This document shows positions 42,077-62,796 of a stretch of 64,000 nt of DNA, piece after piece; position 1 is the first letter of the stretch; the number at the start of each line of letters is the position of its first letter. Location of the stretch: NCBI RefSeq assembly GCF_000711195.1, contig NZ_JOMR01000001.1, positions 1,116,001 through 1,180,000 of the forward strand, written 5' to 3'. Both the position numbers and the translations under genes were made by a program. The DNA is from Thiomicrospira pelophila DSM 1534 (lineage in GTDB: Bacteria > Pseudomonadota > Gammaproteobacteria > Thiomicrospirales > Thiomicrospiraceae). The notes under the pieces were generated by a model. It was not told the DNA's origin and did not search any database. It saw nothing but the letters and a program-made list of their open reading frames with translations.

Positions 42077-42149
42077 ACGTCGTTCAGTTTCTGCTATCGG
42101 TTGCGGAAATTGACTTTTAATAAAAAACCGATCTCTAGGAGAGAAGATA

Positions 42150-42416
42150 ATGTTTGATGCTGAAACTAAAGCAAAAATCATCGCTGAATATGGCGCAAAC
42201 GCAAACGATTCAGGTTCAACTGAAGTTCAGGTTGCTTTGTTAACTCACCGTATTCAATACTTAACTGGTCACTTCAAAACGCATAAGCAAGACAATCACT
42301 CACGTGTTGGTCTACTACGTTTAGTTGGTCGTCGTCGTAAGTTGCTAGACTACTTACACAAAAAAGACGGTCAGCGTTATTTAGATTTGATCGCACGTCT
42401 TGGCTTACGTAAGTAA
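42150..42416 (+). CDS. rpsO: 30S ribosomal protein S15
   Basis: 88 aa, typical length. [48 protein letters not shown] is the S15 core that binds 16S rRNA. Good ribosome site (AGGAGAG). Followed by a perfect terminator and then pnp, the classic order. Confidence 0.97.
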
Positions 42417-57011: not shown

Positions 57012-57686
57012 ATGAAACGAGAAGTTGAGAGAGAAAAGAACTTGCCCGCATTCGAGCTAGATATCGTCGAGCTTGGGGTTCTGGTAGACCGCCTCGTTGC
57101 TTTGTTTGATAATCCTGATAGCGTACGCTGTAGTATTGACTTTAAACTTAAGAATGAGTTCCTGGAGTTTGATTCTGTTGAAGAAATAAAAAATTATAAG
57201 GAACTAAAGGGTAAGGTTAATGGCTTTGTCGTGCGGATTAGTCGAGGCGACAAGGTAGTGTCAATAAGAACATACTCATTTATAAGATCTTTGGTCACTG
57301 TGTCTGCCAAAGCTGATAATGAAGCATGGTGCGCTGGTGCTATAGAAACAGTTTATTCATTCATTTCGTCTCATCGTACTTGGTATTACTGGTTTGTGAA
57401 ATGGCCTTTAGGCACCATGCTATTAGCAATGGTATTGGTACCGACAGTATTGGCTACCTTGGGGTATGAAGATGTACTCAAAAACGAAGCATTGTCGACA
57501 GCTTGGCTGTTATTGGTTCTGTTCTTATGGTTAATTTTTATTTCAAGCGGAAGATTATTGCCCGTGGCTACCTTGCGCATCACAAACGAAGACGGATTTA
57601 TAAGGCGTAGGGCGCCAGAACTAAGTTTGGCTATAGCATTATTAACTACAGTATTAACAGTTGCAGGGTGGTTTTTGGGGGGGTGA
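57012..57686 (+). CDS. Unknown three-helix membrane protein
   Basis: 224 aa. Soluble N-terminal part (about 1-125), then hydrophobic helices near 131-150, 163-180 and 205-222; a cytosolic basic loop RITNEDGFIRRRAPE lies between the last two. I recognise no domain. AAAAGG precedes its ATG at a proper distance. It is the first of several unidirectional genes each followed by a structured spacer, the layout of gene cassettes. Confidence 0.7.
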   Translation: MKREVEREKNLPAFELDIVELGVLVDRLVALFDNPDSVRCSIDFKLKNEFLEFDSVEEIKNYKELKGKVNGFVVRISRGDKVVSIRTYSFIRSLVTVSAKADNEAWCAGAIETVYSFISSHRTWYYWFVKWPLGTMLLAMVLVPTVLATLGYEDVLKNEALSTAWLLLVLFLWLIFISSGRLLPVATLRITNEDGFIRRRAPELSLAIALLTTVLTVAGWFLGG

Positions 57687-57690
57687 TGCA

Positions 57691-57757
57691 CATAACACTG
57701 TGCTCCCCCAAAAAATCGCTGCGCGGTTTTCGTCGGATTAGCTAGGTCGTTATATGC
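57691..57757 (+). other. Putative attC-like site after the membrane protein gene
   Basis: CATAAC (57691-57696) at the left and GTTATAT (57749-57755) at the right match the loose RYYYAAC/GTTRRRY ends, pairing ATAAC with GTTAT. Inside, AAAATCGC-TGC-GCGGTTTT forms a strong hairpin and GCTCC pairs with GGATTAGC apart from bulged bases. The arms are imperfect. The next 200 bp (57758-57968) leads to the ATPase gene and holds nothing else that I can support. Confidence 0.5.
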
Positions 57758-57968
57758 CAAAACTTGCAAAAATTAGATGTCTTGTAAGTGATCAACAAAA
57801 ATTTGTTCTCAGAACAGGATATGACCGACTAGCGATCCATGTTGCTTAAAATAGGAGCAGCGCGGAGACATACACAGATCGTATCTATAATTCACTGGAT
57901 AGCATTATAAGCCTTTGACGACAGGTTCCAAAAGTTAAGGGATTGAATCTAAATTCTAAGGAAGCATT

Positions 57969-60605
57969 ATGATTAAGTCTGAATATCTACGCTTTTTGCG
58001 AACTCTTAATTCAAACGAAGTTATTCCGGGAGTGTGTAAGCTAGCGAATCTTGTACTGGCAAATCTTGATGATCTTGCTGCTCTAGGAACCTATCAAGGT
58101 CAGCGGGTTAAGAGAATGATTGCTTTGGCACAGGCTAACTGGGATACCTTAAGCGCAGAGATTCAGTCATCACCGGAGCAGGGCGTCGAGAAAACTTCTC
58201 CCATTACTCAGATAAAAAGTATGGCAGTGGGGCCGTTTCGTGGTTTCTCCAGGCAAGAGGTTTTTGATTTAGAAAGCCGTTTGGTCCTTATATACGGCCC
58301 AAATGGAACTGGCAAATCTAGCTTCTGCGAAGCCCTTGAATATAGCCTTCTGGGTAACGTAGCTGAAGCGGAAAGCAAGCGTTTTCGAGATCAGGGTGAT
58401 TACCTGAAAAACGCACATGTTAATCGTTTTGCGACGCCAGTTGTTACGGGCTTAAACGAGCAAGACGCTGAGGTTGAAATTGAAGAAAATGAGGAACTAT
58501 TTAGATTTTGTTTCGTTGAAAAAAATCGTATCGATAACTTTTCTAGAATTGCCGCTCAGGCGCCCGCCAAGCAAACTGAGCTTATATCAACGTTATTTGG
58601 CTTAGACTCTTTCAACGATTTTGTACGCAATTTTACTTATGAGCTTGACCCAAAATATATTGATCTTACTGGTGTTAAAACAGCTCAGTTAGCGCAAAAA
58701 AGGCAGGCACTTTCTGGTTCACAGCAGCAGATAACGACTAACAATGCAGAGCTACAAAGGCTAAATGTGGAGGAGCAAACACTAGCCAGCCAGTACCGAG
58801 ACGGAGCAATCTTTAGCCAATTGGACTTCGAACTAAACGGTGATGATGAAAATCCAGGAGCAATCCAGCGACTAGAAACCGATTTGCAACAGCCCCAAGC
58901 AAGTAAAACTAACTTAACAATTAGCGCATTGCAGACACTTGGTAGCTCCATTAGAAGCGGCCTCAGCGAGCTGGAGTTGAAGCAAAAAGACCTGGAAAAT
59001 GCAAGTCAAGAGGTATCATTCAAGAATCTATACGACGCAGTTGTTCAGCTACAATCGAGTAGTCCAGAGCATTGTCCAGCGTGTAAAACGCCGCTCACCC
59101 AGGTATCCGTAAACCCTTACGGTAACGCTAATGAAGAACTTCAAAAGTTGCAACACTTGGCAGAGCTTCAGAAAACAGCACAACAGCTTCAACAAAATGT
59201 TAGTAGATGGTTGCTGGATCTCTCGCAAATATTGAATGTTTGTTTGACGTTTCTGCCACAAAACAATGCTATCCGAAATTTCCATATTTCACCTGGCTCA
59301 CAAATCGATATCGGGTGGTGGTACTCCTTGCAGCAACAGTTAGCGGATGGTTTTACGCCATGGCAGCACCTGGAAGCTCAGGTAAAGTATCTCGAGGAAG
59401 CCGACAAAAATACTGATCAGGACGCTCAAAAACGTTCAACCAAGCAAGCTGAGCTAAATCGTTTGCGCTGGTTTAAAGAGCAAATCACTGTCTTAGAAAC
59501 ACGCAGAAACACTGCTAGACAAGCAATTATTGCTGCGCAACAGGCAATGACCAGTTTTGATACGGAGAATGCTCAACTTATAGCTGATGTGGATGCTGAG
59601 CATGCCAAAGTTCAAATAAATCAAGAGATTGCAGCTTCTTATAAGAGCTTTGTTGAAAGATTGAATGCATATAAGAATCGATTGCCGAGCCAGTTGGTTG
59701 CTGACCTAGGTGACCTAGTTGTGAGACTTTATAATGCTTTTAATCGTTACGATTCAGAAGCAGATAAATTAGCTTCTGTTCAACTTCCGTTATCTCAAAA
59801 TCAACGGTTGGGCATTGCATTTTTTAAAGACCCTTCTTCCTCATTTGATGCTCTCCATATTCTGAGTGAGGGTCATATTCGTTGCCTTGGGCTAGCAATA
59901 TTGCTTGCTAAGAACGTAAAAGAGCGTTGTCCGGTGCTTATTTTTGATGACCCAGTGAACGCAATTGATGATGAGCATCGTCGTGCCATAAGGGAAACGC
60001 TATTTGTTGATGATTTTTTCAAAGGTCGTCAGATCATTTTGGCAGTGCATGGTGAGGAGTTCTTTAATAACACACATCAACTGCTAGGTAAGAGTCAGTC
60101 ACTTGCGTCTCAGTCATATATTTTCCTATCAAGCGCTGGCGAAGACCATATTCAAGTTGACTCATTAAGGCGACCCAAAAATTATGTATTAGCTGCGCGC
60201 AATCTATATGCACAAGGGGAGTATCGCGACGCGTTGATGTCGGCAAGAAGAGCGCTAGAGAACCTATGTGAAAAAACTTGGTTTCATTACGGAAAGCATA
60301 GTGATAAGGAGGACAGCCTAATTAGTGTCTCTCGTCGTTCTCCTTCAGCGCCATGGGATCTAAGGGCATTAGCTGAAAATCTAAGAACTAAGCTGAATCG
60401 TTCTCAGTCAAATATACCTAATAAAGAGCTGATAGTGTCTGCACTCACTTCTGTGCTAGGTCAAGATGGAAGAAACGCATATTGGTCGTACTTGAACAAA
60501 GGTACACATGACGAGACTGACTTGCCTGAGTTCGATCAGCATACTGTCAACGAGGTGATTTCTGCTTTAGAAAGCTTGGACGCTGCCCTAAGTGAGACGA
60601 ACTGA
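57969..60605 (+). CDS. SMC/RecF-type ABC ATPase with zinc-hook motif and possible HEPN-like tail
   Basis: 878 aa. Order: N-terminal helical part (1-85), Walker A GPNGTGKSS (110-118), a long coiled-coil-prone Gln/Leu-rich region (about 235-345), a CPAC zinc-hook-type motif at 369-372, a second coiled coil (about 385-580), ABC signature LSEGHIR (632-638) and Walker B PVLIFDDPVNAIDDEH (655-670). The C-terminus (about 755-878) is helical with ARRALENLCEK and YLNKGTHDE, reminiscent of HEPN or DUF4145-like modules. It resembles phage-exclusion ATPases such as RloC and PrrC in architecture, not demonstrably in activity. ATG is preceded by AAGGAAGC. A PD-(D/E)xK-like gene follows. Confidence 0.85.
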   Translation: MIKSEYLRFLRTLNSNEVIPGVCKLANLVLANLDDLAALGTYQGQRVKRMIALAQANWDTLSAEIQSSPEQGVEKTSPITQIKSMAVGPFRGFSRQEVFDLESRLVLIYGPNGTGKSSFCEALEYSLLGNVAEAESKRFRDQGDYLKNAHVNRFATPVVTGLNEQDAEVEIEENEELFRFCFVEKNRIDNFSRIAAQAPAKQTELISTLFGLDSFNDFVRNFTYELDPKYIDLTGVKTAQLAQKRQALSGSQQQITTNNAELQRLNVEEQTLASQYRDGAIFSQLDFELNGDDENPGAIQRLETDLQQPQASKTNLTISALQTLGSSIRSGLSELELKQKDLENASQEVSFKNLYDAVVQLQSSSPEHCPACKTPLTQVSVNPYGNANEELQKLQHLAELQKTAQQLQQNVSRWLLDLSQILNVCLTFLPQNNAIRNFHISPGSQIDIGWWYSLQQQLADGFTPWQHLEAQVKYLEEADKNTDQDAQKRSTKQAELNRLRWFKEQITVLETRRNTARQAIIAAQQAMTSFDTENAQLIADVDAEHAKVQINQEIAASYKSFVERLNAYKNRLPSQLVADLGDLVVRLYNAFNRYDSEADKLASVQLPLSQNQRLGIAFFKDPSSSFDALHILSEGHIRCLGLAILLAKNVKERCPVLIFDDPVNAIDDEHRRAIRETLFVDDFFKGRQIILAVHGEEFFNNTHQLLGKSQSLASQSYIFLSSAGEDHIQVDSLRRPKNYVLAARNLYAQGEYRDALMSARRALENLCEKTWFHYGKHSDKEDSLISVSRRSPSAPWDLRALAENLRTKLNRSQSNIPNKELIVSALTSVLGQDGRNAYWSYLNKGTHDETDLPEFDQHTVNEVISALESLDAALSETN

Positions 60606-60621
60606 ATTGGCGGTACCGGTA

Positions 60622-60694
60622 TATAACAAGTTGCTACACGCGGATAAATTACTCGCTGCGCTTGCAATTTACCGGTGAGCAAAGCTTAACTTAG
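60622..60694 (+). other. Well-formed attC-like site between ATPase and nuclease-like genes
   Basis: R-box-like TAACAA (60624-60629) leads to a stem GCT-CAC-CGG-TAAATT (60633-60650) that pairs exactly with AATTTA-CCG-GTG-AGC (60666-60680), leaving three unpaired bases, A60636, G60640 and A60644, all on one side. Such extrahelical bases are the hallmark of attC recognition. The right box (CTTAACTTAG) departs from GTT, so it may be weakened. Confidence 0.6.
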
Positions 60695-60711
60695 AAAAGT
60701 GAGGAGTACGA

Positions 60712-61302
60712 GTGTCAATGTGGTGGGAAAAAACTGTTGAGTACCTGTTTGTTATTACCTGTATGAACAGGGACGCTCTGATGGCTCCCTTGGATGGGAA
60801 CTACGAGGCGGGTGCTGACTTGATGGCTCGACACAACGATAAGTGGGTGCTGATCGAGTTTAAGCGGAATGCACAGACCATTGATGATGAGGTTCAGAAA
60901 TTTGCTGAACCCTCTTTAGATTCGTATGAAAGCGCTAAAGCTGCGCTCGCTGAAGAAGATAGCCACCACCTGCTAATTTTTGGTGAAAGAGGTGACCATC
61001 AGCCAATTGAACTGAAAGCACTTTCTTATTTTCGGCACCAAACAGTTGATCCCAAAGAGGCTCTTGGCTGCGGTGTGGCTCAAAAGAAGTTCAATAATTA
61101 CTTGTCTGACTTTTTGTATTTCAAATTCGGAGAGGCGGAAGAAGGATCGGGCGGGCGGAGCCTAGATTATTCGACAGTTGTAGCGGTCAGTAGTGATGGT
61201 GAGATAACTCATTGCGAAGGACTTGCAAACTATTGTGAGCATATGAATCTTGGTCCGGATTTGACCCCAGTCCCGGACCGCGGTATGGGTGGGCCACGCT
61301 GA
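60712..61302 (+). CDS. PD-(D/E)xK-like predicted nuclease
   Basis: 196 aa from GTG (with AAGTGAGGAG upstream), or from ATG 60718. Restriction-like core: helix with WEKTVEYLFV, then Asp36 in YEAGADLMARHNDKW and IEFKRN with Glu49-x-Lys51, separated by 13 residues, a good D-(x)-ExK pattern. No DNA-binding domain is obvious. It follows the ATPase gene through an attC-like spacer. A role as a partner nuclease is inference. Confidence 0.7.
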   Translation: MSMWWEKTVEYLFVITCMNRDALMAPLDGNYEAGADLMARHNDKWVLIEFKRNAQTIDDEVQKFAEPSLDSYESAKAALAEEDSHHLLIFGERGDHQPIELKALSYFRHQTVDPKEALGCGVAQKKFNNYLSDFLYFKFGEAEEGSGGRSLDYSTVVAVSSDGEITHCEGLANYCEHMNLGPDLTPVPDRGMGGPR

Positions 61303-61316
61303 TGCATGCTAATGAA

Positions 61317-62097
61317 AAAAGGGGTCAGAGCCCTTATTGTTAGTAACTTTACTTTTTACCACGCCTGGATTATTTATGCCACGTAAACCAAGATTCTTCT
61401 TACCTGATGTACCTAACCATATTGTGCAACGTGGGCGCAATCGTGACCCTATTTTCTTTGAATCTTCGGACTATTATTTTTACCTGGACAAGCTTCGCGA
61501 GGCGTTGGATAAATATGACGTTTCGTTACATGCTTATGTTCTGATGACCAATCACGTACATTTATTGATGTCTGCCCCTGGTGAAGATGCTATCAGTCAC
61601 CTGATGCAGTTTGTAGGGCGGCATTATGTACCTTATTTTAATAAAAAATATGGTTTCAGCGGCAGTTTGTGGGAAGGACGTTTTAAGAGCAGTTTGATTG
61701 ATTCAGAGCGCTATTTATTTGCATGTATGCGATATATTGAATTGAATCCAATTAGAGCAGGGATAGTAAGCTCACCTGAGGCGTATCTTTATTCTAGCTA
61801 CAATGCAAATGCGCTTGCCCAGCCTAATTTGTTGGTGACACCCCATTCGGAATTTGTAAAGTTAAGTGAAAACCCGCTGGTGCGTAGTCAGTGTTGTGCT
61901 GAGCTTTTCCAACAAGCGATCGCTGAAGATTTGCTTATGGATTTAAGGAAAGGTGTATCTTCTGGTACGCCAATTGGGTCAGAACGTTTTAAAGAGCAGA
62001 TCGAATCGACTTTAGGTCGAAAGGTCGGACAACTAAACCGTGGTCGGTCGCCCACGAAAATACTTATTAATGCATAATAAGGGCTTTGACCCCTTTT
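61317..62097 (+). mobile_element. REP-associated tyrosine transposase element with terminal inverted repeats
   Basis: 22-bp ends, 61317-61338 and 62076-62097, are inverted copies with one mismatch; each contains GGGGTCA and AGCCCTTATT. They enclose one gene coding for a Y1-type transposase. The right end overlaps the gene's last codons. The element lies within or beside an attC-like site (right part at 62098-62125). No target-site duplication is obvious. Confidence 0.85.
61376..62077 (+). CDS. REP-associated tyrosine transposase (RAYT, Y1_Tnp)
   Basis: 233 aa from ATG 61376 (MPRKPRFFLPDVPNHIVQRGRN). HUH motif in YVLMTNHVHLLM (near residue 60), then a conserved YIELNPIRAGIV with the catalytic Tyr (about 120). 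No obvious frameshift. Such enzymes move short palindromes of the same type as those at the ends. Confidence 0.93.
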   Translation: MPRKPRFFLPDVPNHIVQRGRNRDPIFFESSDYYFYLDKLREALDKYDVSLHAYVLMTNHVHLLMSAPGEDAISHLMQFVGRHYVPYFNKKYGFSGSLWEGRFKSSLIDSERYLFACMRYIELNPIRAGIVSSPEAYLYSSYNANALAQPNLLVTPHSEFVKLSENPLVRSQCCAELFQQAIAEDLLMDLRKGVSSGTPIGSERFKEQIESTLGRKVGQLNRGRSPTKILINA

Positions 62098-62125
62098 AAC
62101 TCCTCCGCTGTTGCGGGCGTTATGA
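62098..62125 (+). other. Possible attC right half next to the transposase element
   Basis: CTCCTCCGCTGTTGCGGGCGTTATGA contains an 8-bp-scale hairpin (CCGC-TGTT-GCGG) and ends in GCGTTATGA, the form expected of an attC right end. The left half may be upstream of the element, near TGCTAATG at 61307-61314, which would mean insertion within the site. Confidence 0.4.
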
Positions 62126-62151
62126 CTACTAAACCAGAAGGAGAGTGCTGT

Positions 62152-62796
62152 TTGAATAACGAAAATAAGAAACCTGTCGGAGTAATTGGGTGTATTTTTG
62201 CAGGGGGTTACTCTTTTATAGTTCTGGCGAGCGGACTTGCCTGGGTCGTAGCCTTCTTTGATTTGGAACTCGTACCTGCGGATTCTGTCGTGTCCGTTGC
62301 CGACCTCCAAGCCGACTACGTACATCGTTCAGTCATCGGGGCTGGATATGTCGAAAAGAGCAAGGTTCACAAAGAGTATGTCCTCAAGGAGGATGTAGAT
62401 GAAATCCTTCAAGATTACCTTCCTTCCAAAACAATCAGCCGAGATTACGTCCCGAGAGAAGAATACGAAGCCATTGCTGAAGAAAACCGGCGCCTTAAAG
62501 CCGAGTTTCAAAGCATTCCGTCTCCGTTTGAGCCAGTTCGGCGAGAGTTAAGTCTCTTTGGCAAGTGGCACAACCAGCGCTTGGGCGTATATATAGAAAT
62601 CAAGGATGCTGGTGGCTCCAAGGGGAAAATGGATGTCACATTCTCCCTAGAGTTGCCAGACTCACCCCGACATGACGAGCGCGTTTCAGAGGACCGAGAC
62701 GGCGTGCATCAGTGGCAGTTCAACAAAGCTGGCAGGGATTTTGAGTTGTTTCTGGAACGCGTATACCCTCCAATATTCGTAGTTCGTGAAATCTAA
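62152..62796 (+). CDS. Unknown single-helix membrane protein with periplasmic or cytoplasmic tail
   Basis: 214 aa from a TTG at 62152, preceded by AGAAGGAGAG at 62136-62145; ATGs at 62086 and 62122 lie within the attC-like sequence and have no ribosome site. One helix (about 7-33: VGVIGCIFAGGYSFIVLASGLAWVVAFF) is followed by a charged, coiled-coil-prone region (about 60-120) with repeated DYV/EYV motifs and a beta-rich C-terminus. I recognise no family. Confidence 0.65.
   Translation: MNNENKKPVGVIGCIFAGGYSFIVLASGLAWVVAFFDLELVPADSVVSVADLQADYVHRSVIGAGYVEKSKVHKEYVLKEDVDEILQDYLPSKTISRDYVPREEYEAIAEENRRLKAEFQSIPSPFEPVRRELSLFGKWHNQRLGVYIEIKDAGGSKGKMDVTFSLELPDSPRHDERVSEDRDGVHQWQFNKAGRDFELFLERVYPPIFVVREI

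Follow-up and report, generated by a model that had tools for sequence, protein, structure and literature searches.

A mobile zinc-hook ATPase with a HEPN-like C-terminal domain, carried as a single-gene cassette in Thiomicrospira pelophila

The window analysed here is a stretch of 64,000 nucleotides, positions 1116001-1180000 of the 2.1 Mb single-contig genome of Thiomicrospira pelophila DSM 1534. It contains, on the plus strand, a gene for an ATPase of 878 aa (57969..60605; all positions are those of the window) followed by a small gene for a PD-(D/E)xK-like protein (60718..61302). The ATPase belongs to a family of about 870 residues whose members travel as lone genes without a constant partner, in integron cassettes, in prophages, and on plasmids. 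The small gene is an independent cassette which lies next to the ATPase by the chance of cassette order. We lean towards the view that the ATPase acts on its own, as a mobile protein for growth arrest or defence that is RloC-like in its working and not RloC by sequence; an RNase activity and an anti-phage activity are what we infer for it.

A first-pass annotation had taken the two genes for one ATPase-nuclease defence system. This claim falls because the genes occur apart and a cassette junction divides them. We compared 38 ATPase loci, not counting four stretches from the genome of the window itself: 5 lie on genome contigs, 4 in further genomes, 18 on plasmids (of 30 records), 2 in E. coli genomes (of 19) and 9 on viral contigs. 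Two of these loci (L027 and L028) are near-identical and four (L010, L018, L023, L037) are partial, interrupted, truncated or split. None of the 38 contains the small protein (tblastn, E up to 0.01); three of them (L011, L042, L044) have just 340-622 bp downstream. Likewise, the ATPase is present at none of the seven other places of the small gene, within the stretches fetched (L014/L075, L015, L024, L071-L074). A Septu- or Lamassu-like operon with the small protein as its effector would agree with the shared strand, the gap of about 110 bp, the conserved nuclease-like residues of the small protein and the match of the ATPase head to LmuB models (E 1e-26). Yet at E up to 1 no PADLOC model matches the small protein or either of the other two scanned neighbours of the ATPase, and with the independent occurrence and the junction between the genes such an operon is highly improbable. 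Adjacent cassettes in an array without integrase mimic operons; there, co-orientation and tight spacing are no evidence of a joint system.

The cassette borders follow from DNA homology. By blastn to two Halomonas loci, the ATPase cassette of about 2.9 kb spans 57749..60686 (plus strand). The match to Halomonas sp. SSL-5 (L007) covers 57745-60683, that to Halomonas borealis (L006) covers 57931-60689, and each ends there. The left end is located at a GTTATATGCC junction common to both Halomonas loci; the right end is an attC-type palindrome, TATAAC...GTTATAT in SSL-5. In the window this attC occupies 60620..60692 (plus strand), and its 3' core, TTAAC, lacks the expected G. The DNA of the small gene is 89.5% identical across 60686-61274 to that of its closest relative (L075, from an unrelated genome), which by eye has a clean GTTAGCT core before the gene and an attC after it. 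The end of the ATPase homology and the start of the nuclease homology are a few bases apart (about 60683-60689), at the degenerate attC. In bottom-strand folds the right-hand attC reaches z values of -2.31 in SSL-5 and +0.40 in H. borealis; the copy of the window, with one core G missing, reaches -2.24. On the left, an attC-like site recognised by eye (57688..57756, plus strand; arms ACATAAC ... GTTATAT) closes the preceding cassette; its outer arms pair in the bottom-strand fold, with z at just -0.77. All attC sites were called by eye, without IntegronFinder, and one is degenerate. As the fold alone is no proof of attC sites, it is the homology boundaries which carry the cassette argument.

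The integron integrase model TIGR02249 has four partial matches in the genome, the best with 74 bits against a cut-off of 265, and none reaches the cut-off; the same model gives below-cut-off signals in 14 of 14 control genomes. As no integrase reaches the cut-off, we regard the array as one without integrase, for which the term CALIN (cluster of attC sites lacking integron-integrases) is in use (PMC12444791). At least two attC sites surround mobile single-gene units here, with borders from homology to L006, L007 and L075. Searches of the genome for more attC sites of the same type, with a strict pattern and with the DNA of the first site, match that site alone, and both are insensitive. The cassette-like block of the first-pass annotation is borne out by the flanking attC-like sites. 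Of the leader that separates the ATPase start from the attC junction in the window (57749-57969) and in SSL-5, the H. borealis cassette (L006 7940-8003) is missing about 170 bp.

The ATPase reading frame and its motifs stand as first described, and the key residues are invariant in an alignment of 17 homologues. In Walker A, GPNGTGKSS (residues 110-118; 58296..58322), these are G110, N112, G113, G115, K116 and S118; in the zinc hook, CPAC (369-372; 59073..59084), which lies between coiled coils and is invariant in both alignments A1 and A2, all of C369-P-A-C372; in the ATP-binding cassette (ABC) signature, LSEGH (632-636; 59862..59876), S633-E-G-H636; and in Walker B, VLIFDD (656-661; 59934..59951), F659-D660-D661. 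All lie on the plus strand, as does the N-terminal helical domain (residues 1-79; 57969..58205). This is the fastest-changing part of the protein, with the highest nonsynonymous rate (dN) in 5 of 6 pairwise comparisons; its helices in the AlphaFold2 (AF2) model fall within residues 2-57. Whole-gene dN/dS, the ratio of nonsynonymous to synonymous rates, is 0.23-0.28 in six pairs among four close copies. Such purifying selection speaks for a working gene.

Among Pfam families the general models SMC_N, AAA_23 and AAA_21 pass for the ATPase. The AF2 model, built with 14 sequences, has a mean predicted local distance difference test (pLDDT) score of 81.5 and a predicted template modelling (pTM) score of 0.58; it comprises a head, coiled coils with the CPAC hook, and N- and C-terminal helical parts. 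Residues 80-741 of the model align to SMC/Rad50 heads, for example to 5h68, with Z 20.9 and a root-mean-square deviation (rmsd) of 3.8 over 273, and to 4nck, with Z 20.3 and an rmsd of 3.3 over 265. The head is thus of the Rad50/SMC type with a zinc-hook motif. A match to a housekeeping repair family, which the first-pass annotation counted against a defence role, is not seen with the NCBI models: RecF scores 38.5 bits against a cut-off of 172, Rad50 scores 36.6 bits against one of 700, both far below, and a housekeeping repair protein was rejected on these grounds.

The C-terminal domain (residues 739-878; 60183..60602, plus strand) comprises 140 residues, for which none of the Pfam models passes its cut-off. 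The helical domain noted at first pass appears in the AF2 models and, folded alone, has a pLDDT of 80.4. The top matches of this model are two HEPN proteins, both at Z 10.8: 4nqf, with an rmsd of 3.3 over 115, and 2hsb, with one of 2.6 over 111. The first clearly unrelated entry follows at Z 8.2; the search with the full-length structure, in which the head fills the lists, has no HEPN rows and is uninformative. Five residues, R753, R760 (60246-60248), E764 (60258-60260), N843 and H847 (60507-60509), are identical in 17 of 17 homologues in the pattern R...R-x3-E...N-x3-H. The identity of R760, E764, N843 and H847 suggests an active site. HEPN domains, which have a four-helix fold, are described with an acid in helix 2, an insert before helix 3 and a His at the end of helix 3 (PMC3710099). 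The AF2 layout fits: E764 lies in helix 2, a long insert separates this helix from helix 3, and H847 comes just after helix 3. By eye, the R-x3-E...N-x3-H pattern is recognisable as well, at 24% identity, in L048-L050, which are distant relatives on viral contigs with a similar head, a CPxC hook and an extra C-terminal tail. Taken together, the modelled C-terminal domain appears to resemble HEPN RNase domains, which is suggestive and not proof.

Several observations weigh against a HEPN RNase and against the reading built upon it. The Foldseek E values are weak, the best being 0.16, and the structure tool cautions that helical bundles with Z below about 13 may share a mere arrangement. The classical Rx4-6H motif, a mark of most though not all HEPN domains, is absent in 17 of 17 homologues; N-x3-H is in its place, with N843 where the R is expected. 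HEPN domains without Rx4-6H are described and were proposed to be probably non-catalytic RNA binders (PMC3710099). The spacing from E764 to H847 is x78-92 in the 17 sequences, compared with 36-52 in RloC. No Pfam HEPN model is above cut-off; PF05168 is seen in 1 of 14 members at E 0.099, and below threshold the domain comes closest to Pannexin_like (E 1.9e-4, 21.1 bits with a cut-off of 25) and DUF5113 (E 8.3e-4, 19.8 bits with a cut-off of 27.1). A profile-profile comparison of the ATPase with the Pfam family AAA_13, for which just three AAA_13 sequences were at hand, aligns the head only. Finally, most ATPase loci viewed have no annotated defence gene nearby, and the LexA-box signal treated below is lacking.

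According to a different explanation, the protein is an SbcC/Rad50-like DNA-maintenance or repair ATPase of mobile elements, and its helical C-terminal domain either has a structural role or is a non-cleaving RNA binder. The Rad50-like head and hook, a PHROG match to SbcC-like proteins (E 1.4e-11), and the proposal of non-catalytic HEPN domains (PMC3710099) would agree with it, as would SOS or umuDC-type genes near 6 of the 24 loci whose neighbours were viewed. These six are L016, L020, L022, L027, L028 and L043, the last by ORF (open reading frame) reading, and two of them are near-identical. On the other hand, no neighbour annotated as SbcD/Mre11 exists in the loci viewed, the RecF and Rad50 models remain far under their cut-offs, and the four identical C-terminal residues suggest an active site. 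A LexA-box signal is equally missing: CTG-N10-CAG is found within 200 bp upstream in 1 of 30 regions (of 39 loci, the window included), where about one is expected from shuffles. SOS control, at which the neighbouring umuDC/SOS genes had hinted, was dropped for want of this signal. We consider the repair explanation doubtful.

Near-identical copies of the ATPase gene are carried by Halomonas borealis, Halomonas sp. SSL-5 and Salinivibrio siamensis, with protein identities of 93%, 90% and 89%, respectively. The ATPase occurs in 3 of 369 genomes of a class sample (E up to 1e-30, own genome included) and in 4 of 398 genomes of a phylum sample (E up to 1e-60; the own genome included and one more common to the class sample). 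It is absent from the one other sampled genome of the genus and from the two of the family. The range of the ATPase extends to Liquorilactobacillus and a Melainabacteria metagenome-assembled genome. With an E. coli member as query, 19 of 5,426 E. coli genomes match, 17 of them over at least 80%; both E. coli loci viewed adjoin phage tail genes. None of 50,697 phage records has a match, and a single-sequence scan of viral contigs returned no relative. A profile scan of the viral contigs gave 18 loci: full-length members account for 9, distant relatives for 3 and short matches for 6. On one such contig (L045 5983-8649) the ATPase member is positioned among phage-like genes, opposite to its large neighbours, in the manner of a moron.

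Plasmids contribute 30 of 72,556 records, 23 of which cover at least 80% of the ATPase. On the Erwinia billingiae plasmid pEB102 (L034 5992-8616) the gene is inserted within a conserved conjugation cluster. As 28 of the 30 records are typed conjugative or mobilizable, the protein might be an anti-plasmid or inter-element exclusion factor of plasmids and prophages, acting on DNA like SMC-type systems and with the C-terminal domain as a regulator. A precedent is the SMC-like DdmABC/Lamassu, which acts against plasmids and phages (PMC12409362). However, DdmABC/Lamassu needs partner proteins and no constant partner is seen for the ATPase; further, its C-terminal residues look catalytic. We hold this role to be rather improbable.

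The neighbours were viewed by annotation names, with no systematic test, in 24 loci (19 annotation tables and 5 ORF lists). Restriction-modification (R-M) genes are located in the viewed stretch of at least five, L008, L017, L019, L032 and L033, which counts in favour of a defence or growth-arrest protein. That of L008 is a type IIG enzyme (PADLOC E 1.2e-300); that of L017 is annotated only and has no PADLOC match. Apart from the R-M and the SOS/umuDC classes no partner recurs among the more divergent loci viewed.

What, then, may the ATPase do? Of the defence role assigned at first pass, the two-gene form is lost, and the ATPase alone is a plausible and good single-gene candidate, considering its mobile contexts, its Rad50-like head with hook and the resemblance of its C-terminal model to HEPN. 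By analogy with RloC, the head and hook would sense DNA ends or invading DNA. An ATP-driven rearrangement might then free the HEPN-like domain, which would cut host RNA, most likely tRNA, and so halt translation until the invader is lost. A bolder proposal, a serious possibility that we stop short of calling probable, is that of an unrecognised single-gene immune family. In it a zinc-hook ATPase that resembles Rad50 and has an N-terminal domain of its own would drive a divergent HEPN RNase, spread as a cassette of about 2.9 kb, as prophage moron and as plasmid cargo; a RloC-like design would have been reached with a different RNase domain and target. In the literature covered, which is partial and includes PMC13092281, PMC9519451 and PMC9122126, no prior description of the family is recognisable. 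If the RloC-like reading of the ATPase is right, the defence genes traded by integrons, prophages and plasmids would include one for a self-contained RNase that senses DNA, and the residues to mutate are named.

The remaining features of the array are the following. The ORF listed for the small gene (60712-61302, 196 aa, from GTG 60712) exists as described at first pass; the conserved start is probably ATG 60718, since GTG 60712 is GTT in the closest homologue. All seven of its aligned homologues keep E10, D36, E49 and K51, which upholds the proposed D36, E49 and K51 and makes up the PD-(D/E)xK core E...D...E-x-K. The protein has no Pfam family and no relevant PDB sequence match, its match to NucS is at chance level (E 0.071), and the gene has no match in the viral contigs. 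The nuclease cassette (60686..61302, plus strand, by DNA identity to L075) has lost its right end or has it disrupted. Within its attC region sits an element (61317..62097, plus strand) with terminal inverted repeats of 22 nt and a REP-type Y1 transposase, the one seen at first pass. The transposase scores 44.4 bits with Pfam (cut-off 23) and 69 bits with the REP-type NCBIfam model, under the cut-off of 80; by DNA search the element is the sole copy in the genome. The next cassette (62119..62796, plus strand) has a core GTTATGA at 62119 and an ORF likely from ATG 62122. The preceding cassette holds an ORF of 224 aa (57012..57686, plus strand), followed by the attC-like site already described. 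Neither cassette has a Pfam family above cut-off. Elsewhere in the window, an ordinary ribosomal S15 leader (42083-42203) is the sole Rfam match at gathering threshold.

Compared with known systems, the nearest in design is RloC, a zinc-hook ABC ATPase whose C-terminal HEPN domain is an anticodon nuclease. Both have an N-terminal ABC head, a CxxC hook in a coiled coil and a C-terminal R-x3-E...H, and both are mostly not tied to an R-M locus (PMC2610378). In RloC the triad reads R-x3-E-x36-52-H, and activity was lost when any one of its residues was changed; mutation of the zinc hook raised nuclease activity (PMC2610378). The enzyme is switched on by double-strand breaks in DNA and puts tRNAs out of action (PMC3874168). 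Unlike RloC, the ATPase has an extra N-terminal domain of about 79 residues, an N-x-G-x-H motif and an E-to-H spacing of 78-92. Against Pfam AAA_13 (PF13166) it scores 16 bits, and 20.9 bits in the genome search, both below the cut-off of 36. We take AAA_13 to be the family covering PrrC and RloC. The three AAA_13 proteins found here (L057, L058, L060) share the LSEG-type signature with the ATPase and align with R-x3-E and a later His. PrrC likewise combines an ABC ATPase with a C-terminal R-x3-E...H RNase domain; it is without the coiled-coil/hook insert and is linked to type I R-M (PMC2610378), a linkage not seen for the ATPase in the loci viewed.

Lamassu LmuB and MADS mad3 have a similar SMC-like head, with best PADLOC matches at E 1e-26 and 8.2e-18, respectively. 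Unlike in these systems, no LmuA, LmuC or other mad gene lies beside the ATPase in the window, and the matches end near residue 700. Lamassu, MADS, Septu, PARIS, Dnd and PDC-S06 were all rejected, their PADLOC matches being confined to the shared ABC head and coiled coil. With Rad50/SbcC the ATPase shares the head fold and the zinc hook; it differs by its C-terminal domain, its N-terminal extension and the lack of an annotated nuclease partner.

In 2013 two groups of ABC-HEPN fusions, APECO1_4465 and ERFG_01251, were described, the first often in prophages, and were proposed to be anti-phage (PMC3710099). They have an ABC ATPase and a C-terminal HEPN domain in common with the ATPase, a likeness by description only. 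The APEC O1 chromosome was covered by the DNA search and is not one of the 19 E. coli genomes that match the family, which excludes a close relative only. The kind as such is already known because it is documented that integron cassettes store anti-phage genes (PMC12409362) and prophage ABC-HEPN proteins were proposed as anti-phage in 2013 (PMC3710099). The ATPase family is thus a new variant within this known kind, apart from RloC by sequence and set beside the APECO1_4465 group by description.

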